Assembly: GCF_020731145.1 (NCBI RefSeq)
Contig: NZ_JAJFZN010000004.1
Coordinates: 310,001-374,000 of the forward strand
Direction: 5' to 3'
Length of the DNA stretch: 64,000 bases
Source: Sneathiella sp. HT1-7
GTDB lineage: Bacteria; Pseudomonadota; Alphaproteobacteria; Sneathiellales; Sneathiellaceae
Part shown: positions 47,324 through 63,899 of the stretch, piece after piece
Position numbering within the stretch: position 1 is the first letter of the stretch
Layout: each line of letters starts with the position of its first letter
Notes under the pieces: model-generated
Database searches by the model: none
What the model was told of the DNA's origin: nothing
The model's input: only the letters and a program-made list of their open reading frames with translations
Translations under genes and position numbers: made by a program

Positions 47324-48333
47324 GAAAGCTCCTTCCTCTGACGCAGAACAAGATATAGGAAGAACGGCGCGCCGATCAGGGCTGTCAGAACACCAATTTT
47401 GAGCTCACGACCGGGGGATAGCAGCCGTACGGCCACATCCGCAGTCAGGGTCAAGGCAGCTCCGCCAAAGGCGCTTGCAGGCAAAAGACGGCTGGGACGG
47501 TTTCCCGTCAAACGGCGAAGTAAATGCGGAACAACCAGCCCGACAAATCCGATGGCACCGGCCACTGATGTTGCCGCGCCAACAGATAGTGCCGTGCCAA
47601 AAATAAGCCGTCGCCGAACTTTACCTAGATTAAAACCCATCGTCTGCGCCGCGTCCTCCCCCAGTGTTAAAGCATCAAGCGGTCGCGCGATCGTCATCAA
47701 GACAAGGCAGCCTAGAAAGATAAATGGTGCCGACAGCCAGACATGCTCAAAACTCCGATCGGCGAGCGACCCCATCAGCCAGAACATGATCTCCAGCGCG
47801 GCGAAGGGGTTCTCCGCCATATTCAAAGCAAGGGACGTAAGGGCTGCGGCAAAGCTAGTCACCGCGACACCCGCCAGTATAAACGTTAGCGGGCTATTTG
47901 ATCGACCCGCAAGGAGGTGTACAACCAAAACGCCTAACCCTGCGCCCAGCATCCCCCCCAGCGGCAGGGCGAGCGCAAATAACCCGGCAAGACCGAAATA
48001 AAAGGCAATCACCGCCCCGAGGGACGCAGAAGCCGACACACCGATAATGCCCGGCTCCGCCAGCGGGTTGCGCAAGTATCCCTGAAGCGCGGCTCCCGTC
48101 AAGCCCAGCGTCGCCCCAACCATCAGACCCAATATGGCGCGAGGAAGTCTTATCTCGAAGAATATCAGCGACGCCGTCACGGCCTCACCTGAGAAGATTG
48201 CGCGTAGAAGTTCAAATGGATTTATCGATGCCGGCCCCACCAGCAGTGATGCCAAGAAGGCAACAATGACCGCTATCGCCAATACGAAAAACAAAATTGG
48301 TATTCTGATTAAATATTGCTCTTTTCGCATCAC
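47320..48333 (-). CDS. btuC: Cobalamin ABC transporter permease (BtuC-like)
   Basis: This FecCD-family inner-membrane permease is 337 residues with about ten hydrophobic helices. It has RLPRAILGLMVGATLGLTGAALQGYLRNPLAEPGIIGVSASASLGA, the family's signature region, and GFVGLVVPHLLRRLTGNRPSRLLPASA for ATPase contact. It lies between btuF and btuD in the B12 operon. Confidence 0.93.
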   Translation of the reverse strand: MMRKEQYLIRIPILFFVLAIAVIVAFLASLLVGPASINPFELLRAIFSGEAVTASLIFFEIRLPRAILGLMVGATLGLTGAALQGYLRNPLAEPGIIGVSASASLGAVIAFYFGLAGLFALALPLGGMLGAGLGVLVVHLLAGRSNSPLTFILAGVAVTSFAAALTSLALNMAENPFAALEIMFWLMGSLADRSFEHVWLSAPFIFLGCLVLMTIARPLDALTLGEDAAQTMGFNLGKVRRRLIFGTALSVGAATSVAGAIGFVGLVVPHLLRRLTGNRPSRLLPASAFGGAALTLTADVAVRLLSPGRELKIGVLTALIGAPFFLYLVLRQRKELS

Positions 48334-48340
48334 CGACGAC

Positions 48341-49216
48341 TCACTTCTGATCTACTTTTCGGTAGGACATAATCTTCGACTTGATGGCATGTAATTCGGC
48401 AATGGCATCGGCAATAACAGGTGTTCCGCATACCCACAAATTCGACGGAATACTGACCCGCAAATGATCAGCGAACATCTTCTGCAGCGCCGGGTGATGT
48501 AAATTTTCTGTCGCCATCGCCGGTTTATCCCGCTGTGCGTCTAATATCAACAAATCCGGAGCGGATGTTATCAATGTTTCAAGAGACACCTGCCCGGTCC
48601 CTCTGATGCCGAGCTCACCGCCAAGATTTCGAAACCCGGCCGTCTTCACAACCGAGCTTGCCAGTGTCCCTTCCCCCGATGTAAAACCGTTTGCCCAATA
48701 GAGCGCCGCCATCGGCGCGTCTGCCTCGTTCTCCGACATACCAGCGGATGGCAGTTTATTATCGAATTCTGCGACCAAGGCTCTGCCCCGCTCTGATGCG
48801 CCAACCGCCTCCGCAACAGTTTTAATGTTCGCTCTGATATCGTTCAAACTGGTCGCAATGGGAAGCACTATCACCCGATAGCCCAGTTTACGCAAAAGAA
48901 ACACCGTCGGGCGAGTTGTATATTCCCCGGCGAGAATGAGGTCCGGCTCAAGTTGCAATATCTCCTCAGACAATCCGTGATTTTTAGGCAAACCCGCTGC
49001 CTGCTCCGCCATCATGGATGTCTCCTGATCCGTGGCGAGATTGCTCAGCGATATGATCTGTTGCCGATCCGCCAAAAGGAGGAGAAGCTGATCAGCACAA
49101 ACATTCATAGACACTATCCGCTCTGGCTTCGCCATGCCGCTCCCTGGCAGAAATACCGCCAGGGAGAGAGCGAGAAAGGCCCGCTGTAACCAAATAAATA
49201 GACTATTTCCCGCCAT
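48341..49216 (-). CDS. btuF: Cobalamin-binding periplasmic protein (BtuF-like)
   Basis: This periplasmic binding protein of 291 residues has a signal peptide (hydrophobic AFLALSLAVFLPGSGMA, cleavage near residue 29). The helical-backbone binding fold shows RIVSMNVCADQLLLLLADR and LQLEPDLILAGEYTT. It starts two bases after the btuB stop and ends seven bases before btuC. Its position behind a B12 riboswitch and receptor argues for cobalamin over iron. Confidence 0.92.
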   Translation of the reverse strand: MAGNSLFIWLQRAFLALSLAVFLPGSGMAKPERIVSMNVCADQLLLLLADRQQIISLSNLATDQETSMMAEQAAGLPKNHGLSEEILQLEPDLILAGEYTTRPTVFLLRKLGYRVIVLPIATSLNDIRANIKTVAEAVGASERGRALVAEFDNKLPSAGMSENEADAPMAALYWANGFTSGEGTLASSVVKTAGFRNLGGELGIRGTGQVSLETLITSAPDLLILDAQRDKPAMATENLHHPALQKMFADHLRVSIPSNLWVCGTPVIADAIAELHAIKSKIMSYRKVDQK

Positions 49217-49218
49217 TA

Positions 49219-51171
49219 TCAGAAGGGGCCGAATTTAATATGGAGACCGGCGAAAAACGAAATTCCCGGAGATCCATAACCATAGACTTCCTGATAGTCT
49301 TCGTTCAGAAGATTTTCCCCGCGCATATAAACCTCCGCTCCTTCTGCAAACTCATAGGATGCCGCCAGATTGACAAGAGTATAGCTATCCAGATCAACTG
49401 TTCGCGTCGCCACGGGGAAATAGCTGTCATAGACAATATCACTCTGCTTACCGTTATATTGAAGACTCAAATTGAGGTTGGCAGGTCTCTCCATAACATC
49501 GAAACTGTAGTTTCCGATGAGGCTGGCGATATGTTTGGGCCGCCGGACAAGCGCCGTTCCTATTGCGTCCTTCCCATTTGTGTAGGTATAGGAAGCATCG
49601 AAGCGTATGTTCTCAAACGGCTCGGTCGAGGCAGTAAACTCCATACCTTGTATCCGGCTTGTGCTGGCAAGATTAACGGCTGTATTCCCGCTGCCCTGAA
49701 TAAGATTCTCAATGCGATTGTTGAAATAGGTCACATCAAGGATCAGTTTGTCTTCCAAAAATGCCTGCTCAACACCCGCGTCCCATCCGAATCCTTCCTC
49801 TGGCTTCAAGTTGGGGTTGCCGGTGAAACCGGGCGTGGAGCCGAACAACTCAAACAATGTCGGGTTTTTGACCGCCCGGCCAAAGCTGCTATGAAAACGG
49901 GTTGCGGTTTCATCAAACAGATAGGCGGCCGTCCCGCGATAGGTGATCTGATTGTCGAAGAGATCATCATTGTCATCATAACGCAGCGCGCCGGACAGAA
50001 ATAGATTTTCCCATAAGCTGACCCGGTATTCCGTTGAGTAACCGTAATTTACGATATTCACTGTATTGGGGCCGGAGAAACCGCTGTTGGTATATTGCTC
50101 CTCCTCATCGCGTTCAACCGCGAAGGTAGCAGTATGGTCGGCGTTTGCAAAACCCGGTGTCGAGAAATAATAATCCGACTGATAGCCATAGGTGATCCGC
50201 TTGCCTTCCGATGTATAGGTGGTCGCCCCCGCTCCGTTTAGATAGTTCGTTTTATCGTCCATATAGCTCATCTTGACCTGTTGGTCCCAGGCACCATCGG
50301 CGAGAGTTAGTTTTGCGCTGGTCAAGCCGTATCTTTGCAGGGACTGAGAGCTGTCTTCACCATCGATCGTGTTGACCACAGCGGCGGAGGCATCACTATC
50401 CAGATCACTGTCGACAATCATGCCCACCGCTTTAATTTCAAGGTTCTCGATGGGCTTGACGCTGATTTTGAGGCGACCGGTCGTATTATCATAACCGTCC
50501 TTCTCGGTATTGCCGTTTTTCTCATCGGCCACAGAGATGCCATGCGTAATATACCGCTCGACCGTACCGGAAATGGTGAATTTATCACTTCCATAGCCCA
50601 TATCGACCTGCCCGTCCTTCGTAGAGAAAGAGCCAAACTCCCCACGGGTGGAAAGGGTGAAACCGGGTTCGGGGTCCTTGGTGATAATATTCACCACGCC
50701 GCCAATAGCATCACTGCCGTAAATCGCGCTTTGCGGTCCACGCAGCACTTCGATCCGCGCAATCCCCGCGTTCAGGATATTCGCAAAGTTGAACTCCGAT
50801 CCCGAAGCCGGGTTATTGACTTCTATCCCATCGATCAGGACAAGCGTCTGGTTTGCTTCCGCTCCTCGAATGCGGATTTGCGTCTGGCTGCCAACCGGCC
50901 CTGTGCGATTAACGGCGATACCCGGCACATCCCGTAGAACATCTGAGACGATCCTCACTTGCCGTTTTTCCAACTCATCTGCTGTGATGACCGTGACGGC
51001 GCTACCAATTTCCATAGACGGCAGCGGCGTACGGCTTGCCGAGACGACAATTTCGGGCATGAGTTGGGTTGTGTCATCCGCCAGGACCGACATGGCGATA
51101 ATGATCGCAAGGAAACTGCCGGAGGCAAGGCGGACGGGAATAGGTTTCTTCTTTTTTAAGTAATCAAACAT
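49219..51171 (-). CDS. btuB: TonB-dependent vitamin B12 receptor
   Basis: This is an outer-membrane 22-strand beta-barrel receptor of about 650 residues. The frame is open to 51201, but the ATG at 51171 follows an AGAGGG site and is preferred. It has a basic N-terminus with a hydrophobic signal (about 13-35), TonB box PEIVVSAS and a plug domain (SDVLRDVPGIAVNRTGPVG, RIEVLRGPQSAIYGSDAIGGVVNI). The barrel ends in the C-terminal Phe of KFGPF. A cobalamin riboswitch lies upstream, and btuF-C-D follow. Confidence 0.95.
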   Translation of the reverse strand: MFDYLKKKKPIPVRLASGSFLAIIIAMSVLADDTTQLMPEIVVSASRTPLPSMEIGSAVTVITADELEKRQVRIVSDVLRDVPGIAVNRTGPVGSQTQIRIRGAEANQTLVLIDGIEVNNPASGSEFNFANILNAGIARIEVLRGPQSAIYGSDAIGGVVNIITKDPEPGFTLSTRGEFGSFSTKDGQVDMGYGSDKFTISGTVERYITHGISVADEKNGNTEKDGYDNTTGRLKISVKPIENLEIKAVGMIVDSDLDSDASAAVVNTIDGEDSSQSLQRYGLTSAKLTLADGAWDQQVKMSYMDDKTNYLNGAGATTYTSEGKRITYGYQSDYYFSTPGFANADHTATFAVERDEEEQYTNSGFSGPNTVNIVNYGYSTEYRVSLWENLFLSGALRYDDNDDLFDNQITYRGTAAYLFDETATRFHSSFGRAVKNPTLFELFGSTPGFTGNPNLKPEEGFGWDAGVEQAFLEDKLILDVTYFNNRIENLIQGSGNTAVNLASTSRIQGMEFTASTEPFENIRFDASYTYTNGKDAIGTALVRRPKHIASLIGNYSFDVMERPANLNLSLQYNGKQSDIVYDSYFPVATRTVDLDSYTLVNLAASYEFAEGAEVYMRGENLLNEDYQEVYGYGSPGISFFAGLHIKFGPF

Positions 51172-51423
51172 TGCTGATCCCTCTTGTTTCTTAAAAGACA
51201 AGTAAGGGCAAACAGCGACATTGCCGCTTGCGCCTGACGACGAAGAAACACAGTGCGATCAGATAGAAAACTTCAAGTCCGCATAAAACGGACAAATGGC
51301 TTTCAGCAATTGAGGAAAATAGAATTCAAATCCAAAACCCCGATAGCAACGCATTCCTGCGCGCCACCACAAACGGGTTTCCGTCCCACGAGCACACCCC
51401 GTACAGTGGTCGAGTAGCGCTTA

Positions 51424-51600
51424 CGACGGCAGGTCTCCTGGCTCACAGGTCATTGCGTTTCCCAGCCTTCCCAGTTTCCCAGTGGCTTTTTCGGGCACGC
51501 TCTCTGTTCACAGTTGCGGGGGCAGCCAAGGTGTAAAACAGCCTGAATTCAGTCAGGCTGGTCAGTCCCTGTTCCCTTTTTCATCCATGAATGGAACCAT
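51424..51600 (-). promoter_or_regulatory. Cobalamin (adenosylcobalamin) riboswitch
   Basis: The RNA on the minus strand has the class hallmarks in order. These are GGGAACAGGGA (near 51575), GGCTGCCCCCGCAACTGTGA (51507-51530), GCCACTGGGAA (about 51487-51477), GGGAAGGC, and the B12 box GAGCCAGGAGACCTGCC (51427-51443). It lies 250 bases upstream of btuB. Binding of cobalamin is expected to shut off the btuB-F-C-D operon. A small CTTGT/ACAAG hairpin at 51183-51202 next to the ribosome site may be the expression platform. Confidence 0.95.
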
Positions 51601-51631
51601 CGCTGAGATAGTAATTGCATCAGCGTTTTTT
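51601..51631 (+). terminator. Hairpin with T-tract between btuB riboswitch and exbB
   Basis: CGCTGA (51601-51606) and TCAGCG (51620-51625) form a 6-bp stem followed by T6 on the plus strand. It could end plus-strand transcripts or be part of the promoter/leader of the leftward btu operon. The role is uncertain. No gene is seen from here to 51889. Confidence 0.45.
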
Positions 51632-51889
51632 ATAAGTCAAGCAACAAGAAATCATTCTGGTACTGTTAGAAATGAAACGTCACATCAAGCTGGCTGCCGT
51701 CGATCACGAGACAATTTGCCGCAGCTAATGACTACTAATACTAAAACAACCCGGTTTCCCTAAATTTACAGAGGCAAATGGATGCGCTTTGCGCAAAACC
51801 AGAGGCTCGGCCCTTCAAACCGCGACTTGACAAAACATGTCTCTGTTTGCGTATTAGTTGCGAATCTTAACCCTTGGGAAGGCGTCCTC

Positions 51890-52579
51890 GTGATCGAATA
51901 TGTAATATCGCTCTATGATAAAGGCGGCCCCGTAATCGCTATTCTGGCTGTTCTTTCCGTGGTGGCATTGTCAGTAGCCCTGCAAAAGCTCTGGCTCTTT
52001 ACATCAACGGGCTTGGGTCGACATGAAAAAATCCGGGAAGCCATGCTGCTCTGGAAACGCAATCAAGGACTGCAGGCGATCGAGCTCCTTCAGGCACAAA
52101 AGAGCCCGACCGCAATGACCGTGCGCCATACGTTGCAAGGTCTCTATTATTCGCCAGATCGGCAGGCACTTGTCCGAGAGGATATTGATCGCGTCGCCGG
52201 GGAGGAACTTGCCAAGGCACGCAAGGGAATTCGATTGCTGGAAACAATCGCCCAGATCGCGCCTCTGCTGGGCCTGTTCGGGACAATTCTCGGAATGATC
52301 GAAGCTTTTCAGGCCCTGCAATCCGCAGGTGCAAATGTTGACCCTTCGGCGCTAGCCGGGGGAATATGGGTCGCGCTGCTGACAACGGCGGCGGGCCTCG
52401 CCCTCGCGATCCCGGCTTCCATGGTGGCAACCTGGTTTGATACTTTGGTCGATGCAGAGCAGCAGGCAATTGAAAGCATGGTCACATCCCTCCTGACTGG
52501 TGAAATTACCGCCGTTTCTCTTAACCAATCTACCTCCGGCCTTTCTGCGACGCTCACCGCTGATCATGCGAATTCGTAA
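51890..52579 (+). CDS. exbB: MotA/TolQ/ExbB proton channel protein
   Basis: This inner-membrane proton channel of the TonB energising complex is 229 residues. The open frame runs back to 51782, but the GTG at 51890 has AAGG seven bases upstream and matches the family N-terminus (VIEYVISLYDKGGP). It has three membrane segments, about 11-36, 123-150 and 157-183, with the conserved APLLGLFGTILGMIEAF. It overlaps exbD by 14 bases. It probably powers BtuB and the second receptor downstream. Confidence 0.92.
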   Translation: MIEYVISLYDKGGPVIAILAVLSVVALSVALQKLWLFTSTGLGRHEKIREAMLLWKRNQGLQAIELLQAQKSPTAMTVRHTLQGLYYSPDRQALVREDIDRVAGEELAKARKGIRLLETIAQIAPLLGLFGTILGMIEAFQALQSAGANVDPSALAGGIWVALLTTAAGLALAIPASMVATWFDTLVDAEQQAIESMVTSLLTGEITAVSLNQSTSGLSATLTADHANS

Positions 52580-52952
52580 CGGCAAGAAGCGCAAAAACCT
52601 AATCGGTCTTACATCGCTTATCGATGTAATATTCCTGTTACTTCTGTTTTTCATGCTGTCGTCGACCTTCACAAAATTTACCGAGTTCACACTCTCCGCC
52701 GCAACGGCTGGTCCTGCCCAGGAGAAAACAGAAAAGCCCATCATAATTTTCGCCCATCTTGACGGGCGGTTTGAAATTGAGGGGATTTCGATAAGCGCAA
52801 GCGCGCTGAAAAACCGCGTGCAAGAGCAAACCGAGGAAGGTCGCACCAGCGCCGTCCTTGCTCCGGATAAAAAAATGCCGACGCAACAGCTTGTTACGAT
52901 TCTGGAAACCCTTGAGCAAACAGATTTGCAATCTGTTTCTTTGGCGCGCTGA
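52566..52952 (+). CDS. exbD: ExbD/TolR-type biopolymer transport protein (first)
   Basis: This 128-residue partner of ExbB has a single N-terminal membrane helix carrying the conserved Asp (LTSLIDVIFLLLLFFMLSSTF), then a periplasmic domain. The ATG at 52566 is chosen because it matches the family start and overlaps exbB. A second exbD-like gene follows one base later, so the complex may be heteromeric. Confidence 0.92.
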   Translation: MRIRNGKKRKNLIGLTSLIDVIFLLLLFFMLSSTFTKFTEFTLSAATAGPAQEKTEKPIIIFAHLDGRFEIEGISISASALKNRVQEQTEEGRTSAVLAPDKKMPTQQLVTILETLEQTDLQSVSLAR

Positions 52953-52953
52953 C

Positions 52954-53370
52954 ATGAAAATAACCACGCCCAAAGAAAAGCGCGCCCTGCCCGAGAATAC
53001 GATTGCGCTCATCAATGTTGTCTTTCTAATGCTGATCTTTTTCCTGATCGTCGGGACGGTCGCCGCCCCTCTTTCCAAAGATCTTCAGCCCGCCTGGACG
53101 AGCCAGCGCCCTCTGGTCCCCCCACATCCACAGGTGATAGAAATCAACGCGATCGGGGAGATTTCCTATCAGGGAAAGACCGTCGCATTAGACCGTCTTG
53201 GTTCGACTGCCCGTCAGATTTTGACAAAAGATGGCGACGAAATTTTCATCAAGCTTGCGGCAGATCACGAATTGGAAGCAGGTCGCCTCATCGAAATTCT
53301 GGAGGTACTGAAAGCCGTGAAAGTCGGCAATATCCGCTTGGTGACCCTCGACAAGGTGGCGTCAAAATGA
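52954..53370 (+). CDS. exbD: ExbD/TolR-type biopolymer transport protein (second)
   Basis: This is the second ExbD-like protein, 138 residues. The membrane helix is NTIALINVVFLMLIFFLIVGTV, with Asn (I-N-V) at the place where the first ExbD has the conserved proton-carrying Asp. If the alignment is right, this copy lacks that residue and may be structural. The start at 52954 is right after the first exbD stop. It overlaps tonB by four bases. Confidence 0.9.
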   Translation: MKITTPKEKRALPENTIALINVVFLMLIFFLIVGTVAAPLSKDLQPAWTSQRPLVPPHPQVIEINAIGEISYQGKTVALDRLGSTARQILTKDGDEIFIKLAADHELEAGRLIEILEVLKAVKVGNIRLVTLDKVASK

Positions 53371-54218
53371 CCGCCCTTTTGCTTCGCCAACCAACTTTCT
53401 TGCTGCTCTCAACCGGATTGCATGTCATTGGTATTATGGGGTTAGTTGCCTGGCAAAGCGCACCCCCGTCGCTCGCCATGCCGAAGGGCCGGATTACGCT
53501 TACGGTCGGCCAATTACCCGCGGTGAACAGCCCACCGAATACGGAGCCTGCGCCGACGTCCGAGCCTGAGGCGGCATCCCCCAAGCCTAAAGAAGTGACG
53601 GTCTTCCCGATCCAACCAAAGGTGATTGAAGCCGTTCCCACATTACCCGTAGTCCCGAATAAAAAGGTCATCCCAATAACGCCACCGAAGGAGACAGTAC
53701 CCCTCCCCGTTCTAGTCAGCAAAAAGCGGGAACCTGTTAAACCGCTGCCCGTCCCGCCGCGACCGATACCCTTGAAACAGACAGTTAAAAACAAACAACC
53801 TGCCCCACAGAGTCCACAGAAGACAAAAGCTGTCCAGCCCGTTGAAATTCCACAGAAGGCGACAACAGGTGGTCAGAAAATTGCAGCAAGCCATCCCGGA
53901 GTAGCGGACGGCAGTTCGATCGGCAACAGCGAGACCAGTGCGTATCGCGATACCGTTCGGGCCGAACTTGCACGGAACAAATATTACCCCCGCGCTGCGA
54001 AGTTGCGGCGGCAGGAGGGTGTTGTTCATATTGAATTTACCCTGACATCAAATGGTGCGTTACAGAATCTTAAAATCTTCAAATCTTCAGGATCAAGGGC
54101 GCTGGATGAGGCAACCTTGAAAATGGTGCGAAAGGCGGCCCCGTTCGATCCCTTTCCATCAACCATCCCGGAGGCGGCTTTGGAATTCAAATTTCCGGTC
54201 AGGTATAATTTCGAATGA
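53367..54218 (+). CDS. tonB: TonB family energy-transducing protein
   Basis: This 283-residue protein has an N-terminal membrane anchor (about 10-32, FLLLSTGLHVIGIMGLVAW) and a long Pro/Lys-rich periplasmic linker (about 50-165). The C-terminal TonB domain contains KYYPRAAKLRRQEGVVHIEFTL and LDEATLKMVRKAAPFDPFP. It follows exbB-exbD-exbD in a coupled cluster and should transmit energy to TonB-dependent receptors such as BtuB and the one at 54808. Confidence 0.92.
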   Translation: MTALLLRQPTFLLLSTGLHVIGIMGLVAWQSAPPSLAMPKGRITLTVGQLPAVNSPPNTEPAPTSEPEAASPKPKEVTVFPIQPKVIEAVPTLPVVPNKKVIPITPPKETVPLPVLVSKKREPVKPLPVPPRPIPLKQTVKNKQPAPQSPQKTKAVQPVEIPQKATTGGQKIAASHPGVADGSSIGNSETSAYRDTVRAELARNKYYPRAAKLRRQEGVVHIEFTLTSNGALQNLKIFKSSGSRALDEATLKMVRKAAPFDPFPSTIPEAALEFKFPVRYNFE

Positions 54219-54287
54219 CAGGGCATATGAGGAAACGGAATTACATATGGTCTTCAACGCATCTTGCGGCGAACGCAGGTCGTGTTT

Positions 54288-54734
54288 ATGAGAACGATCA
54301 TGTTCGATAATAGATTTCGGAAAAATATAACTCTTTTGATGCTCCTCACGTTCCTTGCGAACGCGGTGATGCCAGCCCTTGCCCTTGGCGCATCAAACAT
54401 CGAACAAGCTACCGACAACCCCGAGCTATCGCAGTTGGAGAAGCTGGTTGGTGAGCGTTTCCTCATCTGTACCCCGGAAGGGATCAAATGGGTAACCTGG
54501 GCCGATCTTCAGGATGCCAACGTCCAGACTGACCCCGGATCGCACCCAAGATGTGCGCTCTGCGTCCTACCGACCTTTGGCACGACGGTCGGGAATATTT
54601 TATTCGACGGAACGCCGATACCAATCCTTCGCATAGCGAAGGCCGACCCTTTTATTTCCATCGCAAATGATGCTCATTTCGATCTGTTTCGCATTCGCGG
54701 TACTTTTTCTCGCGCGCCACCCCACAGCCTCTGA
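54288..54734 (+). CDS. DUF2946-like periplasmic/secreted protein
   Basis: This protein of about 148 residues (ATG at 54288 or 54300; the frame is open from 54264) has a signal peptide (LLMLLTFLANAVMPALALG). A short mature part contains RFLICTPEGIKWVTW and HPRCALCVLP. The C-x2-C with preceding His matches DUF2946 proteins, which often sit beside TonB-dependent metal (copper or iron) receptors. It lies between tonB and a receptor gene, which suggests a metal-uptake role (inference). Confidence 0.65.
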   Translation: MRTIMFDNRFRKNITLLMLLTFLANAVMPALALGASNIEQATDNPELSQLEKLVGERFLICTPEGIKWVTWADLQDANVQTDPGSHPRCALCVLPTFGTTVGNILFDGTPIPILRIAKADPFISIANDAHFDLFRIRGTFSRAPPHSL

Positions 54735-54807
54735 TCACAGCAAGAATTTCAAATGACATTAAGCCCGGCCAGGCGACTGGCTGCGGCGTGTGAACTTGTG
54801 AGGCAAA

Positions 54808-56868
54808 ATGAAAACAAGAACTTTAATGCTGGGCGTCAGTCTGGCTGCCCTAAGTGTATGGCCAATCAGCGCCGAGGAAAAAGCACCGCTCGAAAAGGAA
54901 ATTACGGTCACAACGACCGATGAAAGCAGCAGTTCCATTACGGTGCCAGGAAATGAAGACGCGCGGATGATCATCAATCGAACCCCCGGCGCTGTCGATC
55001 TGGTTGAAGGGACTGAGATCGAGAGCCAGCTCAATATGAGTTACGAAGATACCCTCTCGCTGGTCCCCGGCGTCAGCGCCAAGAAGCGCTATGGCGAGGA
55101 AGTGCGCCTTTCCATCCGAGGTTCTGGCGTTTCCCGAGGGTTTCACCTTCGTGGCATCAAGCTGACGCAGGATGGCATACCATTCAATCTCGCGGATGGA
55201 TCCGCGGATTTTCAGGAACTGGACCCCGAAATCACCCAGCGGATTGAAGTCTATAAAGGTGCAAATGCCCTGCAATATGGCGGGACCAGTCTCGGCGGCG
55301 CGGTTAACACCGTCACAAAAACAGGCCGCACGAATCTAGGGCTGGAATTCAACCTGATGGGCGGTTCCTACGACACCTATCGCGGCAATATTCAGGGCGG
55401 CATGGCGACTGAAAAATATGACGCATATGGGAGTGTGACGGGAACAACCAGTTCGGGGTTTCGCGATCATGAGGATCAGGAAAACCTTAAGCTGAACGGG
55501 AATGTCGGCATCAGATTGAGCGACGGTGTCGAGACGCGCTTTTACCTCAGTGCGAACAACATAAATCAGGAACTTCCCGGCAGTGTCAGCCGATATGACG
55601 CCCTGCATGATCCTGAAGCTGCAGATCCGGGCGCAATCACTGGAGACTGGCAGCGAGATATCCGTTCTGTCCGCCTTTCCAATAAGACTTCCTGGATATT
55701 CGGGGATGACGAGCAGGTCGATGTCGGCGTTTTCGTGAATTACAAGGATCTCTTCCATCCGATCACGCCCTTTGTCGGGATAATAGATCAGAAAAGTTGG
55801 GACTATGGAGCCTTCTCCGAATTTAGTGGCAGCACTGAAATCGGCGGATACAGGAACAGCTATCGCATCGGGTTAATCGGCCAGCTCGGGAATACAGACG
55901 CGGATGTCTACCAGAACATAAATGGCTCACGTGGTGCCCTCACCTCGGACATGGACCAGAGAGCCACCGATATCGTGCTTTATGGGGAGAATACGTTCTA
56001 CATTTCGCCTGAAGTTTCCGTCATTACAGGGGCCCAGCTTACCAGCGCCGGTCGCAAGGTTACGGATTATACAAATCCGGCGGAAAGCGACAGCAAGACC
56101 TATAACTCCATCAATCCCAAGATTGGGGTCATGTATGAGCCCACCGAAAATCTTCAGTTTTTTGGAAATGTCAGTCACAGCAGTGAAGCGCCGACATTCT
56201 CGGAGCTCACACAGGGTGGCACTGTTGGCTTTACCCCGGTTGAAGCGCAGAAAGCCTGGACGGCGGAAATTGGTACCCGTGGCAATATCGGCATCGTCGA
56301 ATGGGATGCCGCGCTCTATCGTGCCTGGTTGAAGGATGAAATGCTACAGTTCACCACTGGCCCTAGTATTCCCGCCAGCACCTTTAATGCGGATCGGACA
56401 ATCCATCAGGGGGTGGAGCTTGGCTTTGACGTCAATGTGGCGAATGACCTGATGACAAAGGGGGACAGTCTCGTCTGGCGTAACAGCTATACCTATTCGG
56501 ACTTTTATTTCGAAGGGGATGCCCAGTATGGCGATAACCAGATTCCCGGTATCGCGGATCATTTCTATCAGAGTGAATTAAAATATGATCACAATGGGGA
56601 ATGGTTTATTGCGCCGGGAATCGAAGTTTCCGGCAGCGCCTATGTAGACTATGAAAACACGATCGAAGCCCCAGGCTATCTGCTGGTGAATTTCTCTGCC
56701 GGTTATACGGTCAGTGACAATGTGTCTCTGTTTCTGGATGCCCGGAACCTGCTGGATCGGCGATATATCTCCACCTACAGCACCATCATAAATGGTGCCG
56801 GGAATACCAACGTGTATTACCCCGGCGAAGGCCGTCGCGCGTTTATTGGCCTCAAGGCTCAACTCTAG
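54808..56868 (+). CDS. TonB-dependent receptor (FecA-like, ligand unknown)
   Basis: This is an outer-membrane receptor of 686 residues with a signal peptide (cleaved after about residue 22, SAEEK). The plug domain has LSLVPGVSAKKRYGEEVRLSIRGSG and RIEVYKGANALQYGGTSLGGAVN. The barrel ends in FIGLKAQL. No N-terminal signalling domain (FecR-type) is present. The PepSY protein downstream and DUF2946 protein upstream suggest a metal chelate, such as a ferric siderophore, as the ligand. This is not provable from the sequence. Confidence 0.9.
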   Translation: MKTRTLMLGVSLAALSVWPISAEEKAPLEKEITVTTTDESSSSITVPGNEDARMIINRTPGAVDLVEGTEIESQLNMSYEDTLSLVPGVSAKKRYGEEVRLSIRGSGVSRGFHLRGIKLTQDGIPFNLADGSADFQELDPEITQRIEVYKGANALQYGGTSLGGAVNTVTKTGRTNLGLEFNLMGGSYDTYRGNIQGGMATEKYDAYGSVTGTTSSGFRDHEDQENLKLNGNVGIRLSDGVETRFYLSANNINQELPGSVSRYDALHDPEAADPGAITGDWQRDIRSVRLSNKTSWIFGDDEQVDVGVFVNYKDLFHPITPFVGIIDQKSWDYGAFSEFSGSTEIGGYRNSYRIGLIGQLGNTDADVYQNINGSRGALTSDMDQRATDIVLYGENTFYISPEVSVITGAQLTSAGRKVTDYTNPAESDSKTYNSINPKIGVMYEPTENLQFFGNVSHSSEAPTFSELTQGGTVGFTPVEAQKAWTAEIGTRGNIGIVEWDAALYRAWLKDEMLQFTTGPSIPASTFNADRTIHQGVELGFDVNVANDLMTKGDSLVWRNSYTYSDFYFEGDAQYGDNQIPGIADHFYQSELKYDHNGEWFIAPGIEVSGSAYVDYENTIEAPGYLLVNFSAGYTVSDNVSLFLDARNLLDRRYISTYSTIINGAGNTNVYYPGEGRRAFIGLKAQL

Positions 56869-56926
56869 ATCAGGGAACTGCCGCCCCACCTCCTTTTCCC
56901 GGATTTGGGGCGGTCGCTTTATCAAA

Positions 56927-58426
56927 ATGAAATTTCGAAATTTACTCGCGAAAAAGAACCTGTCCCTGCACCGCCTTCTGACATGGGTTGGCGGTATAGC
57001 CCTTCTCCTGTTTGTAGTCTCGGCCTTTATGCATCCTCTAATGATCTGGACAGGCCCGAGGGCCGCATCCTTTTTCCCGCCACAGGTCAAAATAAAGAGC
57101 TCCGTGGTTGAATCCATCCCCATAATCCTTAGCCAAAACAAGATCGATAACGCTGCAATCGTCAAGATTGTACAGGGAGAACCAGGCCCTCTCCTGCAGG
57201 TCTCGGCTGAAATATCCGGACCAAAGCGATATTTTAACCCGGTAACGAAAACAGAGCTGCCTGACTATGATCAAACACAGGCGATCTGGCTGGCCCGGTA
57301 CTATTCCGGCCTATCAGATACGACGATAACTAATATTACACTCCAGACTGAATTCAACACCGATTATCCCTCGGTCAACCGTCTGTTACCAGTCTATAAA
57401 ATCGAGTTCGATACCCCGGACAACAAAGCCTTGTTTGTCCATACCGAAACCGGGGCCATGGGTAGTATAACCAACAACTGGAAATCGGCACTCCAGTCGG
57501 GCTTTCAACTTCTGCACACATGGAACTGGCTTGAAAATGTCGAGACATTGCGTCTTATCGCCATGGGTATAATGCTGCTTTCAATACTTGGCCTTGTGAT
57601 TAGTGGCACGGGATTGGTGTTTCTTTTAAAACGCCGAAAAATCCCACAGAAATCCCGTAGGTTTCACCGGTATATAGCCTATGCAATCTTGCTTCCCCTG
57701 CTCGCCTCCTGCCTGAGTGGCAGCCTGCATCTTTTCTGGTCATCTTTCGAAGGCAATATTGACGACCAGCGACTCCAGAGAAACCTTGATCTTGCCCAGG
57801 CTCATTTCAATGAAAAATCGAACTGGCTCGCGCCCTACCAGGATATTTCCTTTAATGCGATGAGCCTTATTGAGGGAGCTGGCGGCGGCTATTTCTATCG
57901 ATTGGGCATTCCTCCGGCGCAGGTAGATAAGGTGATTACCCGACGCCAGAAATTTGATGGTATGCCTGTTGAAAAATCCGCCCTCTACATCGCGCTCAAC
58001 AATCAAACGGAGGCACCGCTTACCGACCGTAATATGTCTATTCACTACGCGCGGAAACTTCTGAAAAAAGATATCCAAACCTCAGCTAGTGCCTCACTCA
58101 TCACCCGTTTCGGGCCGGAGTACGATTTTCGGAACAAACGTTTACCAGTTTGGAAAATCATCTTCGCCGACGCTCCATCCGATATTCTTTATATCGACCC
58201 TATATCCGGCATCCTCGTTGATCGCATGACATCACCAGATCTCTTTGAACGATATGTCTTTTCCTGGGCCCATAAATGGGACTTCCTGGTCCCTGTCTCT
58301 GGCAGACCCGGACGCGATGCATTGGTTATGCTGTTCCTCACATCACTTCTTGTGTTGGCTGGATTGGGTATTTATATGCGGACTAAATCAACCAAAACAA
58401 AAAATGGCTCACCGAATGAACGGTAA
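56927..58426 (+). CDS. PepSY-associated transmembrane protein (possible siderophore-iron reductase)
   Basis: The frame is open from 56792, but the ATG at 56927 (MKFRNLLAKKNLSLHRLLTWV) is the family-like start. It gives 499 residues. Four hydrophobic segments are seen at about 12-45, 205-235, 248-272 and 462-484, with PepSY-like periplasmic regions between. Such proteins often accompany TonB-dependent siderophore receptors and are thought to reduce imported iron. The C-terminus overlaps a hairpin (58403-58432). Confidence 0.82.
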   Translation: MKFRNLLAKKNLSLHRLLTWVGGIALLLFVVSAFMHPLMIWTGPRAASFFPPQVKIKSSVVESIPIILSQNKIDNAAIVKIVQGEPGPLLQVSAEISGPKRYFNPVTKTELPDYDQTQAIWLARYYSGLSDTTITNITLQTEFNTDYPSVNRLLPVYKIEFDTPDNKALFVHTETGAMGSITNNWKSALQSGFQLLHTWNWLENVETLRLIAMGIMLLSILGLVISGTGLVFLLKRRKIPQKSRRFHRYIAYAILLPLLASCLSGSLHLFWSSFEGNIDDQRLQRNLDLAQAHFNEKSNWLAPYQDISFNAMSLIEGAGGGYFYRLGIPPAQVDKVITRRQKFDGMPVEKSALYIALNNQTEAPLTDRNMSIHYARKLLKKDIQTSASASLITRFGPEYDFRNKRLPVWKIIFADAPSDILYIDPISGILVDRMTSPDLFERYVFSWAHKWDFLVPVSGRPGRDALVMLFLTSLLVLAGLGIYMRTKSTKTKNGSPNER

Positions 58427-58437
58427 GCCATTGAAAT
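58403..58437 (-). terminator. Minus-strand terminator, probably of the former tRNA-Arg gene
   Basis: AATGGCTCACCG and CGGTAAGCCATT pair (12 bp with one mismatch) around AATGAA. Read on the minus strand it is followed by TTTTTTGTTTT, so it terminates leftward transcripts. It sits just after the CCA end of the tRNA-Arg fragment, where a tRNA terminator would be. It overlaps the end of the PepSY gene on the other strand. Confidence 0.75.
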
Positions 58438-58440
58438 AAT

Positions 58441-58485
58441 TGGCGACCCCGGCACGATCCGAACGTGCGACCTATTGATTAGAAG
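58441..58485 (-). mobile_element. tRNA-Arg (TCT) 3' fragment: attachment site of an integrated element
   Basis: The sequence matches the 3' half of tRNA-Arg. It includes anticodon loop CTTCTAA (anticodon TCT), the 3' anticodon arm, variable loop, T-arm stem GCACG/CGTGC and acceptor strand CGGGGTC plus G and CCA at 58441. The 5' half (D-arm and acceptor) is missing: upstream sequence does not form a tRNA. The T-loop reads TTCGGAT, losing the invariant A58. This is what remains at one end of an element that integrated at a tRNA gene. The tyrosine integrase starts 160 bases away. Confidence 0.82.
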
Positions 58486-58652
58486 TCTATAGGACCTACA
58501 TTCTTCAAATTTCTACAGACTTCTTTTCAGTTACATTTATTGTTTAAATATAAAATCTTAATAGAATTATAGAACAAAAACTTTCACCTCTCTTCTTTCA
58601 TTTTCTACGAATTTCGCTTACCCTAAGCTTACCTATAGTAATTCGAGATAAT

Positions 58653-59804
58653 ATGGCTAAGATCCGGCTGACAAAAAATTTAGTCGACAGGCTTCAAGCA
58701 GAAGATGCAGAATGTATTTTCTGGGATGAAACATTGCCGGGTTTTGGCATCAGAGTGAAGCCCTCTGGCGTAAAGAGTTATGTTGTCCAATATCGCAACC
58801 GTCAAACAGGCCGATCAAGACGGAAGACTCTAGGCAAACACGGTCCTCATATGTCATTGCATCAGGCCCGTGAACTTGCACAAGGTTACTTATCCGATGT
58901 AGTTCGAGGCAGAGACCCTGTCGCAGAGTTCAATGCAATACGTTCATCACCCTCCGTTCGGGAACTTGCAGATAATTATATGAAGCTACACGCCATCCCT
59001 AAAAAACGCCCTAAGAGTGCTGCAACCGATCAACGAATGTTAGATAGATTTATCCTACCAAACCTTGGTGGCCATAAGGTATTCGAGATTGGGTATAACG
59101 ATATACAGACGCTCCATAATTCTCTTAAGTCGACACCATTTCAAGCCAATAGAGTACTCTCACTTCTTTCAAAAATGTTCGAACTATCTATTAAGTGGCG
59201 ATGGCGGCGTGATAACCCTGCCAAGGGTGTTGAAAAGTTTCATGAGGAGAAAAGACATCGTTGGCTTGCTGACGAAGAACTCAAGAGACTGACAAAAGCG
59301 CTAGATGAACATCCAAATCAAATAGCGGCCAATGCCATCCGACTTCAACTTTTGACTGGCGCAAGAATTGGCGAAGTTTTATCGGCAAAATGGGCTGATT
59401 TTAATCTTGAACGTGGCGTCTGGATCAAACCCTCCCATCATACCAAGCAGAAGAGAACAGAGCACCTGCCTCTCTCAGGAGCAGCCAAAGAATTACTAAT
59501 CGTTCATCAAAAATCAATTGGCAGTGATTCAGTTTATATATTTCCCGGGCGACAACCCAACAAGCCAACTGTAGATTTAAAAAGATTCTGGCGCTCAATA
59601 GTAACAACTGCGGAAATTGACAACTACCGCATTCATGACAACCGTCATACCCATGCTTCGCAACTCGTTTCAAGTGGCCTGAGCCTCGCGATAGTGGGGC
59701 GCTTACTCGGTCACACTAGCCCAATGACTACTCAACGTTACGCTCACCTTGCTGATGATCCGCTTCGGGAAGCGGCAGAAATCATGGCGAAAAAGATGAA
59801 TTAA
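58653..59804 (+). CDS. Tyrosine-type site-specific recombinase (integrase)
   Basis: This is a phage/island integrase of 383 residues. It has the N-terminal arm-type DNA-binding domain (IFWDETLPGFGIRVKPSG), a core-binding SAM-like domain, and the catalytic domain with the first Arg in LTGARIGEVLSA, HDNRHTHA (H-x-x-R), and LGHTSPMTTQRYAHL (His and nucleophilic Tyr near 366). The gene lies beside the tRNA-Arg fragment. It is thus probably the integrase of the element whose cargo begins at about 59900. It appears intact. Confidence 0.94.
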   Translation: MAKIRLTKNLVDRLQAEDAECIFWDETLPGFGIRVKPSGVKSYVVQYRNRQTGRSRRKTLGKHGPHMSLHQARELAQGYLSDVVRGRDPVAEFNAIRSSPSVRELADNYMKLHAIPKKRPKSAATDQRMLDRFILPNLGGHKVFEIGYNDIQTLHNSLKSTPFQANRVLSLLSKMFELSIKWRWRRDNPAKGVEKFHEEKRHRWLADEELKRLTKALDEHPNQIAANAIRLQLLTGARIGEVLSAKWADFNLERGVWIKPSHHTKQKRTEHLPLSGAAKELLIVHQKSIGSDSVYIFPGRQPNKPTVDLKRFWRSIVTTAEIDNYRIHDNRHTHASQLVSSGLSLAIVGRLLGHTSPMTTQRYAHLADDPLREAAEIMAKKMN

Positions 59805-59899: not shown

Positions 59900-61129
59900 T
59901 TATCTTTTACTTGGCCCAGCAACAATTCCCTGATCATGAAGAGTTCCGATCTGGTTAGACGAAAGGGCTAACACTTCCGCTAATACTTCATCCGTATTCT
60001 CGCCAATCAAAGGCGCTCTTGAAGGGGCTACCCGTTCGCTAAAGGAGAAAGTACCAGCTGCCCCGGGAGTCGGATAGGTGCTGCCACTAGGATGAAACAC
60101 TTCGGAGAAAATTGGATTTCCACTTACGAACCCCTGCTCCGTTTCGATCGCATCTGACAGTGTTTTATATGCAGACCAGCATACAGCAGTTTTGCCAAAT
60201 AGAACTTCCAGCTCCTTATAGGTTCTTGCACAAACTTCCGCTTGGATAACCTCACACAGACGAGCTCTGTGTTTGTATCGCTCGCCTTCATGCAAGAAGG
60301 ATACACCTAGCTCACTTTCAAGGGACGTTACTACAGCTTCTATACCTAGTGAACGGACCAGCTCCATCCATTGCCGTTTGGTAATGGAAACGATGATAAT
60401 GCTTTGTCCATCCCTGGTTCTAAAATCCCTCCCCAAAGAGCCATAGAGATCGTTCTGGATCCTTGGTCTGTCCCCATTTCCAATCATTGTTTCGGCAATT
60501 TGACCAACATGCCCGAGCGAGGCTGCCGCGATATCGCTCAATGGTATCTTCACTTCTTCACCTCTCCCCGTCAACTGTCGGTTCCTCTCCGCCGCCATTA
60601 GCGCAAAGGCCGCATATGATCCGGTCAGCAAATCCCAGGCAGGAAGCACATGATTGACGGGTTCGTCTGCTTCTATAGAGTTCGGGCCTGTCATAAGCGG
60701 GATTCCTGTTACCGCATTTATCGTATAATCCACGGCATTTCTGCCGTCTGCCCAGCCCATAACCCTCACCGTAATAAGGTCTTCTCTACGGGAAACCAGT
60801 TTTTCATGGGCTAAAAATCCCGTGTCTGAATAATTCGTTACAAACATTCCGGCCTGCGACCCCGGCGCAGTCACTATTTCCTGTGCCAGCTCTCTACCCG
60901 CCTCAGTGGTCAGGTTAATTGCCACGGATTTCTTACCCTTATTCAATCCTTCCCAATAGTAACTCGCGCCATTGTCAGCTACTGGCCATCTTGTATAATC
61001 CGGCCCACCACCAATCATATCAAAGCGAATGACTTCCGCCCCTAACTGCGCCAAATAGAGGCAACAAGAAGGAGCCGCTATGAAAGAGGCCCCCTCAACG
61101 ACACGCATTCCTTCCAATATCTTATACAT
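59900..61129 (-). CDS. CaiB/BaiF family CoA-transferase (class III)
   Basis: This is a class III CoA-transferase of 409 residues. The nucleophilic Asp is Asp 166 in PAWDLLTGSYAAFALM. The N-terminal GMRVVEGASFIAAPSCCLYLAQLGAEVIR is the nucleotide/CoA-binding part. It is the last gene of a minus-strand catabolic set with an acyl-CoA dehydrogenase, an aldehyde dehydrogenase and a second protein that looks like a CoA-transferase. The acid it activates is unknown. Confidence 0.9.
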   Translation of the reverse strand: MYKILEGMRVVEGASFIAAPSCCLYLAQLGAEVIRFDMIGGGPDYTRWPVADNGASYYWEGLNKGKKSVAINLTTEAGRELAQEIVTAPGSQAGMFVTNYSDTGFLAHEKLVSRREDLITVRVMGWADGRNAVDYTINAVTGIPLMTGPNSIEADEPVNHVLPAWDLLTGSYAAFALMAAERNRQLTGRGEEVKIPLSDIAAASLGHVGQIAETMIGNGDRPRIQNDLYGSLGRDFRTRDGQSIIIVSITKRQWMELVRSLGIEAVVTSLESELGVSFLHEGERYKHRARLCEVIQAEVCARTYKELEVLFGKTAVCWSAYKTLSDAIETEQGFVSGNPIFSEVFHPSGSTYPTPGAAGTFSFSERVAPSRAPLIGENTDEVLAEVLALSSNQIGTLHDQGIVAGPSKR

Positions 61130-61149: not shown

Positions 61150-62322
61150 CTAGTAGGAGCGCGGCATGCCTAATACATGCTCGGATAAATACGAAAGAAT
61201 TAGGTTTGTTGAAATTGGTGCAATCTGATAGAGGCGCGTTTCACGAAACTTTCGCTCGATATCGTACTCCTCAGCAAATCCGAACCCACCATGAGTTTGT
61301 AGGCATGCCTCTGCTGCTGCCCAAGACGCCTCAGCTGCAAGCAGCTTCGCGGTGTTCGCTTCCTCACCGCATTTCTCTTTAGCATCAAAAAGAGACGCGG
61401 CACGTTGTACCAGAAGCTCAGCAGCTTTCATCTGAGCATATGCTTTTGCTATTGGAAATTGAATGCCTTGATTTTGACCGATAGGTCTACCAAATACTAC
61501 CCGTTCTCTGGCATAGGCCGTTGCTTTTTGAATAAACCATTTTGCATCACCGATGCACTCAGAAGCGATGAGAATACGTTCCGCATTCATGCCTGACAAA
61601 ATATATTCGAAACCTTTGCCTTCCTCGCCTATTAAATTGGCTTTTGGGATAGGCACGTTGTCAAAAAACACTTCTGTAGTTGAGTGATTGATCATTGTTG
61701 GCAGCGGCCTAATAGTCATACCATTTTTCAGGGCCTCCTTCATATCGACAAGGAAAACTGACAATCCCTCTTTCCGCTGCAGAACGTTCTCTTTTGGTGT
61801 CGTCCTGGCAAGCAACAACATCAAGTCTGAATACTCTGCACGCGAGGTCCAAACTTTTTGTCCCGAAACAATATATTGACCGTTCTCGTATCTCGCGAAA
61901 GTCCTAATATCAGTGGTATCAGTTCCACTCGTAGGCTCCGTTACTCCGAATGCCTGCAATCGTAATTTTCCAGAAGAAATACCGGGTAGATAGGCTCTCT
62001 TCTGTTCTTCACTGCCATGCCGAAGCAGAGCGCCCATAATATACATTTGAGCGTGACAAGCTCCTGCATTACATCCCGCACGTTGAATTTCTTCTAAAAC
62101 AGCTATTGCCGCAACCAGAGGAAGTCCTGCCCCACCATATTCTTCTGGAATAAGGATGGATAAGTATCCAGCCTCATTCAAAGTTTCGACGAATTCCGTT
62201 GGATACTTGTTGGTTCGATCAAGCTCGCGCCAATATTCGCCCGGAAATTCTTCACATAATTTTGGGATAGCTTTTCGTATTTCTGCGATTTCGTCGCAAA
62301 ATGTCTCAGCGTCGGTTTTCAT
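61150..62322 (-). CDS. Acyl-CoA dehydrogenase
   Basis: This FAD flavoprotein is 390 residues. Marks are LRLQAFGVTEPTSGTDTTDIRTFA, GQKVWTSRAEYSDLMLLLAR and the C-terminal family motif QTHGGFGFAEEYDIERKFRETR. The enzyme oxidises an acyl-CoA to an enoyl-CoA and hands electrons to ETF. It is 20 bases upstream of the CoA-transferase in the same direction, so the two are likely co-transcribed. Confidence 0.92.
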   Translation of the reverse strand: MKTDAETFCDEIAEIRKAIPKLCEEFPGEYWRELDRTNKYPTEFVETLNEAGYLSILIPEEYGGAGLPLVAAIAVLEEIQRAGCNAGACHAQMYIMGALLRHGSEEQKRAYLPGISSGKLRLQAFGVTEPTSGTDTTDIRTFARYENGQYIVSGQKVWTSRAEYSDLMLLLARTTPKENVLQRKEGLSVFLVDMKEALKNGMTIRPLPTMINHSTTEVFFDNVPIPKANLIGEEGKGFEYILSGMNAERILIASECIGDAKWFIQKATAYARERVVFGRPIGQNQGIQFPIAKAYAQMKAAELLVQRAASLFDAKEKCGEEANTAKLLAAEASWAAAEACLQTHGGFGFAEEYDIERKFRETRLYQIAPISTNLILSYLSEHVLGMPRSY

Positions 62323-62396: not shown

Positions 62397-63899
62397 CTAA
62401 ACAGCCATCAACACAGACTTCGTTTCGGTATAAAGATCCAATACTGCTCTGCCCATTTCGCGTCCGAAACCGGAGAGTTTATTGCCCCCAAACGGCAAAT
62501 TTGGATCAAGCAAGTTATGGCAATTAACCCATACTGTTCCAGCCTGTAGATCGGGAATAACGCGATGGATTTTTTTATGGTCGTTGGACCATATGCTTGA
62601 TGCTAATCCATAGGGTGAATCGTTTGCCAGAGATACCGCCTCCTCAACCTCATCAAATGGCATCGCGACGAGAACGGGGCCAAAGATTTCTTCTTGAACA
62701 ACGTCACTTGCTTGGGGCATGCCAGTCAAAATTGTTGGTTGCAGGAAATATCCCGGAGAGTCTGGGCACGAGCCACCAGTCAGCACAGCCGCACCTTGCT
62801 TTTTACCTTTCTCAATATAATTGCAAACGGACTGTCGTTGCCGTTGAGAAACGAGTGGGCCCATTTGCGTTGTGGGATCCAGCCCAGGACCGATCTTCAT
62901 ATTGGCCGCACGCGCAGCCACACCTTCAATAACCTGATCAAAAACAGAGCGTTGGACATATAATCGAGAACCTGCTGTGCATGCTTGCCCCTGGTTAAAG
63001 AAAATTGCCGAAGTGGCCCCAGCGATTGCCGCATCAAGATCAGCATCATCAAAAACGAGCACTGGTGACTTGCCACCAAGCTCCAGCGATACCCGCGTGA
63101 TGTTTTTCATTGCCGCAATGCCAACCGCCCTGCCGACCTCTGTCGAACCGGTGAATGCAATCTTATCGATGTCAGGATGCGAAGAGATGGCCGCCCCTAC
63201 CACTGATCCGCTTCCTGTAATGATATTGACGACACCCTCAGGAAAGCCTGCTTCCAATATTAATTCCCCTAAACGAAGTGCTGTTAGAGGTGTTTCGCTA
63301 GCTGGTTTAAGAACTATCGTACATCCAGTTGCGAGTGCTGGTCCGATTTTCCAAACAGCCATGTTAAGTGGAAAATTCCATGGAATAATTGCACCAACTA
63401 CCCCTACTGGTTCCTGCGCAGTATAAGCAAAATAGCCGCCTCCATCTCGTGGACGCGGAAAAGAAACATCAACAGTCCTGCCTTCCATTTTCGTTGCCCA
63501 GCCAGCAATGTAACGTAAATAGTCAATTGAACTACGAACATCTACTCGATTGGCCATCATCACTGGTTTTCCGTTATCAAGAGATTCCAACTCAGCAAAC
63601 TCATCGATGTTGGATTCTAACAGATCCGCTAGTTTCAGCAGTGCTCGCTGTCGGTGCGACGGCCGCATCTGAGACCACTTCGGATTTCTAAACGCCATCC
63701 TCGCCGCAGCGACTGCCTTGTCGACATCTTCCATATTAGCACTAGGTACATAGGTAAATGCTTCAGCCGTCGCAGGATTAATAACGTCCTGTGTATTACC
63801 AGAGACAGACGTCACCCACTCTCCACCAATAAGCATTGTGCCCGCCATTCTTTTGATGGTCGTAACGGTTGCCTCAGAAATGCCCTCAAACGGTTTCAT
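62397..63899 (-). CDS. NAD(P)+-dependent aldehyde dehydrogenase
   Basis: This is a second aldehyde dehydrogenase of 500 residues. Catalytic Cys 307 is in FNQGQACTAGSR, the Glu in SLELGGKSPVLV, and the cofactor loop is FTGSTEVGRAVG. It is not a duplicate of the one at 40773: its N-terminus and central motifs differ. It lies 75 bases upstream of the acyl-CoA dehydrogenase. The upstream neighbour ends four bases before its start. Confidence 0.92.
   Translation of the reverse strand: MKPFEGISEATVTTIKRMAGTMLIGGEWVTSVSGNTQDVINPATAEAFTYVPSANMEDVDKAVAAARMAFRNPKWSQMRPSHRQRALLKLADLLESNIDEFAELESLDNGKPVMMANRVDVRSSIDYLRYIAGWATKMEGRTVDVSFPRPRDGGGYFAYTAQEPVGVVGAIIPWNFPLNMAVWKIGPALATGCTIVLKPASETPLTALRLGELILEAGFPEGVVNIITGSGSVVGAAISSHPDIDKIAFTGSTEVGRAVGIAAMKNITRVSLELGGKSPVLVFDDADLDAAIAGATSAIFFNQGQACTAGSRLYVQRSVFDQVIEGVAARAANMKIGPGLDPTTQMGPLVSQRQRQSVCNYIEKGKKQGAAVLTGGSCPDSPGYFLQPTILTGMPQASDVVQEEIFGPVLVAMPFDEVEEAVSLANDSPYGLASSIWSNDHKKIHRVIPDLQAGTVWVNCHNLLDPNLPFGGNKLSGFGREMGRAVLDLYTETKSVLMAV

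Follow-up and report, generated by a model that had tools for sequence, protein, structure and literature searches.

The tRNA-Arg(TCT) 3' half found in the window, i.e., the whole 64,000-nucleotide stretch analysed here (C6:310001-374000 of the 3.83-Mb genome of Sneathiella sp. HT1-7, G000), was confirmed as the displaced fragment of a tyrosine-integrase island. Judging from the sequence, this 35.6-kb integrative island very probably entered by means of its own integrase, with tRNA-Arg(TCT) as target and its anticodon stem-loop as crossover site, the attP of the island supplying both the 3' half of the tRNA gene and a terminator. The features at its left end are the following (window coordinates):

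58403 to 58432, minus strand: terminator hairpin T1 of the left end, repeated without change at C6:403974-404003
58441 to 58487, minus strand: displaced tRNA-Arg(TCT) 3' half, 47 nt with CCA (anticodon-loop complement at 58479-58485)
58616 to 58633, plus strand: tandem GCTTACC pair spaced by 11 bp, probably arm sites for Int, found again at C6:403946-403963
58653 to 59804, plus strand: tyrosine integrase gene (int), 383 aa (PF00589, 3.5e-26; Arm-DNA-bind_3, 1.6e-13)
59900 to 61129, minus strand: CoA-transferase family III, cargo
61150 to 62322, minus strand: acyl-CoA dehydrogenase, cargo
62397 to 63899, minus strand: aldehyde dehydrogenase, cargo; the island goes on past the window

When the 158 nt at 58403-58560 were searched against the 3.83-Mb genome, one other match was obtained (C6:403974-404061, E 1.1e-31), where ARAGORN finds an intact tRNA-Arg(TCT) on the minus strand (C6:404012-404088), 35.6 kb rightward of the fragment. 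This is the same-strand partner for which the original prediction had proposed to scan rightward, and the element does run beyond the window end, its other end lying by the intact tRNA. The intact gene and the 3' fragment are at opposite island ends in the same orientation, with the fragment downstream of the tRNA. Because the fragment matches this tRNA, the island could be delimited to about 35.6 kb (C6:368488-404058), the left 5.5 kb being inside the window and the right end corresponding to window coordinate 94058. The end repeat comprises 92 bp, 85 of them identical, and reaches from a few bases before T1 to a few bases past the anticodon loop, just beyond which the common sequence stops, in line with the proposed break at that loop. 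The 45-base 3' half with CCA foreseen at 58441-58485 is present, but its true end is 58487 (47 nt), 58485 being the edge of the anticodon loop. Over 47 nt, the fragment differs from the intact tRNA by three mismatches; its T-loop reads TTCGGAT versus TTCGAGT, i.e., the A58 to G change already noted and a second change at position 59. T1 itself is identical in both repeat copies, the differences, including base 73 and T-loop bases 58-59, being located outside it. An assembly duplication as source of the repeat was ruled out, since both copies lie within a single 543-kb contig.

As predicted, the integrase gene is intact, at a distance close to the 160 bases announced: its open 383-aa frame begins 165 nt past the fragment, and the conserved columns are present in an alignment of seven integrases. 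The element thus contains a phage-type tyrosine integrase with an open frame, as expected of a tRNA-targeting genomic island. The left GCTTACC pair is situated 20-37 nt before the int start codon and the right-end pair (C6:403946-403963) between T1 and the cargo, and both are probable arm sites of Int. No sigma-70-like promoter was found for int.

A common plan, i.e., fragment, arms, int, cargo, arms, downstream hairpin (weak in two of the six islands) and intact tRNA, is shared with three further islands of this genome and two congener islands. Arm-like pairs occur at both ends of the G009 island (int 52% identical) and of the tRNA-Lys(CTT) island on contig C5 of G000 (int 51%), whose Lys fragment lies within C5:484183-484276, about 9.2 kb from the intact tRNA-Lys. 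In the two tRNA-Met(CAT) islands of G000, on C6 and C8 (int 39-40%), GCTTCC pairs are found by int and by the intact tRNA, and the G013 island (int 31%), whose ends are on two contigs, shows, as read by eye, GTTGC pairs with 11-bp spacing at either end. A tRNA-Met(CAT) with a common 5' flank is found at four contig ends (C4, C8, C11, C6), and two of these ends also hold islands; these loci are probably repeated copies where the assembly breaks. The end repeat could instead have arisen by duplication or rearrangement, or through a second tyrosine recombinase (C6:400170-401240), which lies with an AlpA-like gene 2.8 kb from the intact tRNA. However, both ends carry arm-like pairs that match the pairs of islands whose int genes are related, and relatives of the window integrase recur beside tRNA fragments, so that such an origin appears highly improbable.

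The gene to the right of tRNA-Arg, which from inspection by eye we take to be NDUFS4-like, was found in 22 of the 24 genomes of the genus, this one among them, and at each of the 22 loci it is adjoined by tRNA-Arg(TCT). Five of these loci (G001, G012, G015, G017 and G019) are empty sites with alanine dehydrogenase (ald) beside the tRNA, three (G000, G009 and G013) show both island ends, G021 and G022 have layouts of their own, and the 12 others were left out of the classing. In G001, G012, G015 and G017, a gap of 38-55 bp lies between the end of the ald frame and the tRNA. On contig C69 of G019, the nearest relative by the NDUFS4-like gene (94%), ald, a hairpin and the tRNA are followed by a 55-nt overlap with a contig starting at the tRNA, and this genome would therefore provide the fifth empty site across overlapping contig ends. 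In G022, about 3 kb separate ald from the tRNA, and in G021, ald is followed by a hairpin, a 29-aa int remnant, about 3 kb, and then T1 and the tRNA. Hence, the expectation of a relative with an empty site was borne out at 5 of the 22 congeneric loci, but not for this island alone: no relative lacking only it, i.e., keeping the PepSY-like gene, T1 and tRNA, was retrieved from the 24 genus genomes with 57600-58490 as query. For this reason, the last insertion is not separable from earlier changes at the site.

Such earlier changes are visible to the left of the fragment, where the window carries:

45313 to 46431, plus strand: alanine dehydrogenase (ald; TIGR00518, 2.3e-151), which abuts tRNA-Arg in the empty sites of congeners
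46508 to 58426: block of B12/TonB-type uptake genes, 12 kb separating ald from the fragment, with BtuB- and BtuF-like members according to NCBIfam

Further genes of this block are presumably PepSY, ExbB/ExbD/TonB and BtuC/BtuD, names which were read from the translations. Since ald abuts the tRNA in the empty sites but lies 12 kb further left here, the left flank of the fragment, judged on gene order, is not native to the site and has moved in; the original prediction had treated it as the native flank, which no longer holds. Because this flank is non-native, the fragment may be a 3' half supplied by an earlier occupant. B12 uptake genes are located at differing places in congeners, near tRNA-Lys(CTT) in G015. 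About as probable as not is an arrangement of two islands in tandem, in which the 12-kb block would be an older island that has lost its int and outer fragment, the present fragment being its 3' half. The block parts ald from the tRNA here and not in the empty sites, relatives of its BtuB (67-87% identical) are located elsewhere in G019, G015 and G013, and a degraded int persists at the ald side in G021, all of which argue for it; on the other hand, the surroundings of ald in the window yielded neither an int nor a tRNA fragment, and the block could have arrived by another route.

The minus-strand T-tract hairpin announced beside the fragment was borne out by folding and by a terminator scan. 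T1 at 58403-58432 forms 12 pairs followed by a T-run (–19.4 kcal/mol, z –6.5, as stable in none of 200 shuffles) and is the one site of a scan of 58380-58700, versus 0.2 expected. Its interpretation as the old tRNA terminator still in place had to be given up, because T1 flanks both island ends, the hairpins of the empty sites differ from it, and G021 has an ald-side hairpin in addition to T1. Instead, T1 is a duplicated and probably element-borne terminator. With up to three mismatches, T1 occurs at five places in 4 of the 24 genus genomes, which rules out a genus-wide repeat. Four of these places are beside a tRNA gene or fragment; for the fifth, in G020, the 3-kb locus gave no tRNA with ARAGORN. 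A T1-like hairpin stands beside an intact tRNA-Lys(CTT), not tRNA-Arg, in G002 (G002:C181:17057-17145).

Hairpins at the tRNA and fragment sides were scored against 100 single-base shuffles each. Downstream of the intact tRNA, they are strong in four of six islands (Arg island of G000, z –4.6; G013, –4.2; Lys, –3.9; Met on C6, –3.7) and weak in the two others (G009, z 0.1; Met on C8, –0.5), so that a strong element-borne terminator is not universal. On the fragment side, z reaches –3.9 for the Arg island of G000 and for G009, –3.5 for Lys, –3.5 and –3.7 for the Met islands and –0.5 for G013. In the empty sites, hairpins were obtained in G001 (z –4.2), G015 (–3.1), G017 (–4.0) and G019 (z –2.1 at –23.5 kcal/mol), and none in G012 (z 1.0). 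The end hairpins look similar in G009 and are identical in the Arg island of G000, a likeness which alone cannot tell an element-borne from a host-borne terminator. The tRNA-Met on C4, which lacks arm pairs, has a GGGTCCC hairpin as found beside both Met fragments, and the island-side copies differ downstream; this pattern supports a downstream region brought by the element rather than left behind.

Alternatively, T1 and the fragment 3' half could be the host's own and precede the island; plain mutation or rearrangement would have altered the terminator in this lineage, from which the element would then have acquired its copy of T1. The identity of T1 at both ends agrees with such a history, as does the fragment's G73, kept as in the empty-site species. 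It is nevertheless rather unlikely, given that the five empty sites, including that of the nearest relative, lack T1, and that in G021 T1 is by the tRNA with the ald-side hairpin and int remnant on the far side. Regarding base 73, G73 is present in the five empty sites and A73 in the intact copy of the three two-ended islands, while among the fragments those of G000 and G013 have G73 and that of G009 has A73; this pattern is suggestive only, because both bases occur in the remaining, unclassed loci. As for the preferred element-borne T1, its presence in the same form at both Arg ends would fit a site that an element of this type had remodelled before.

According to the proposed mechanism, the order in attP would be arm sites, terminator, tRNA 3' half, crossover, arm sites and int. 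Int, presumably bound to the GCTTACC pairs, would recombine attP with attB in the anticodon stem-loop, the exchange probably taking place within the 7-nt loop. The 3' half and terminator of the element would then join the 5' half of the host to give a complete tRNA gene with its stop signal, and the previous 3' half would be pushed with its own terminator to the int end, where the T1 beside the fragment would have come from an earlier occupant. As the far arm would bring both tRNA 3' half and terminator, the gene would be remade and its transcript could stop before the cargo. Meanwhile, int would come to lie on the fragment side and be read into the island, with an arm-like pair ahead of its start codon, and Int may repress its own promoter, as could be suspected from IntS of KplE1. 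Our strong preference for this entry route is due to the same-strand partner, the 92-bp repeat, the empty sites, the arm-like pairs at both ends and the recurring plan; counted against it are the integrase loci with an intact tRNA or with neither tRNA nor fragment described hereafter.

A profile built from the seven aligned integrases was run against named genomes and gave at least 592 stretches. The best 80 of at least 438 relatives were taken together with 22 earlier loci, i.e., 102 loci, or 101 after one duplicate was dropped; these loci are related, so the counts are not independent, and they concern this integrase family alone. In this set (best 80 of at least 438, plus 22), a minus-strand tRNA 3' fragment with CCA lies at most 500 nt upstream of int at 61 of 101 loci, an intact plus-strand tRNA stands beside int at 6 and neither is found at 34. 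The window's own locus was added by hand to the 61, because the strict pattern does not match its decayed T-loop. The "neither" class includes L046, with 103 nt upstream only, and L060, with a minus-strand tRNA-Leu by ARAGORN at –143, and 22 of its 34 members (best 80 of at least 438, plus 22) fall within one clade of 23. At the 102 loci (same best 80 of at least 438, plus 22), the strict fragment pattern was matched 61 times upstream on the minus strand, once downstream on the minus strand, and never on the plus strand, upstream or downstream. Similarly, among the 100 loci with enough sequence (from the best 80 of at least 438, plus 22), a 7-mer recurs upstream of int at 11 bp in 55 and at 10 bp in 16, versus none and 2, respectively, downstream. 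On a quick tree with several long branches, the fragment label needs 16 changes, the mean after shuffling being 31.7, whereas the integrases of the six intact-side loci do not group (6 changes, no fewer than shuffled). The closest integrases among the matches listed are 63-68% identical and belong to Rhodobacteraceae-type genomes; one of them, from Roseovarius, likewise adjoins a tRNA fragment, the anticodon loop of which was read from the sequence as TCT.

The left half of the cargo is catabolic, with two CoA-transferases, acyl-CoA and aldehyde dehydrogenases, an SDR, a TetR, an aldo/keto reductase, an AMP-ligase, a TRAP transporter and a thiolase. The right half holds an MFS protein, an amidohydrolase, an isochorismatase, a pirin, an alpha/beta hydrolase, a two-component pair, an AAA_13 protein, an HTH_17 gene with the second tyrosine recombinase and, side by side, a QatC-like and a 259-aa protein. 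Among 30 of the 32 element ORFs of at least 70 aa, no relaxase or conjugation gene, which would denote an integrative conjugative or mobilizable element, was matched by Pfam (cut-offs 1e-3, 1e-10 and 1e-8), nor were the phage structural or lysis genes of a prophage. Just inside the right end (C6:401255-403862), the QatC-like protein has 617 aa, longer than the QatC profile, and its neighbour gave no Pfam, PADLOC or NCBIfam match; as the QatC match is under the NCBIfam cut-off (218 of 280 bits), the pair is possibly a variant defence system. The AAA_13 protein (C6:396140-399397) matches the PADLOC candidate defence family PDC-S06 (2.3e-168). At C6:384038-384915, a short ORF matches the start only of the Dsr1 profile and ends where a truncated rve transposase begins, which looks like a broken defence gene. 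A zinc-type alcohol/quinone dehydrogenase at C6:395284-396270 is probably broken as well, because it is split over two adjacent ORFs (ADH_N, then ADH_zinc_N). The AlpA-like HTH_17 gene overlaps the second recombinase (C6:399922-401240). Of 289 genomes from the class, 10 (this one among them) hold a relative of the second recombinase at 1e-60. A fixed pairing of this recombinase with the QatC-like gene was rejected, QatC being present in none of 11 other loci (flanks up to 1.5 kb).

This kind of island is known and ordinary, and the present one is very well delimited. According to the accessible part of the Islander study, 2083 of 3919 islands have anticodon-centred sites and 125 tandem arrays of two or more are known; as here, these islands combine an integrase gene, a regenerated tRNA and a displaced 3' fragment in the same orientation, whereas the repeat described here also spans the terminator and int is at the fragment end (PMC4383910). 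In that part of the text, the words terminator, proximal and distal are absent and the int end is not counted (PMC4383910). Mycobacteriophage Int-Y systems (Boilgate, tRNA-Lys) similarly have a core of 30-45 bp over the tRNA 3' half, tolerated mismatches and putative flanking arm sites, as far as the accessible text goes, but they are phages and the word terminator does not appear in it (PMC10865867). For KplE1 at argW, the portion available describes an int read away from att, with an IntS promoter which overlaps att and arm sites and self-represses; there, int is by attL at the argW tRNA, and not at the fragment end as here (PMC2951348). The survey reported in the same portion covers 1273 integrase-tRNA pairs and required a called tRNA gene next to int, and integrases beside fragments should therefore fall outside it (PMC2951348). 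No paper on this layout, i.e., att with terminator and int at the tRNA-distal end, was found in the open-access literature that was searched.

The layout recurs over much of the integrase family, and its interesting part is the combination of int on the fragment side with an element-borne terminator. With roughly even confidence, we propose that a large, mostly alphaproteobacterial family may use an attP with fragment-side int and a far-arm tRNA repair cassette (3' half plus terminator). One island after another would then replace the terminator of tRNA genes and their 3' half together with base 73, leading to island-derived tRNA 3' ends, and surveys based on integrases beside called tRNA genes would miss most of them. 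Exact ends are given here for an island with catabolic and defence-type genes, and a search rule for similar islands can be derived: directly ahead of int, one looks for arm-like repeats with 11-bp spacing and, beyond them, for the 3' half of a tRNA on the minus strand. If, as is suggested here, an incoming island exchanges both the terminator and a portion of its target tRNA gene, the expression and charging of the tRNA could be affected.
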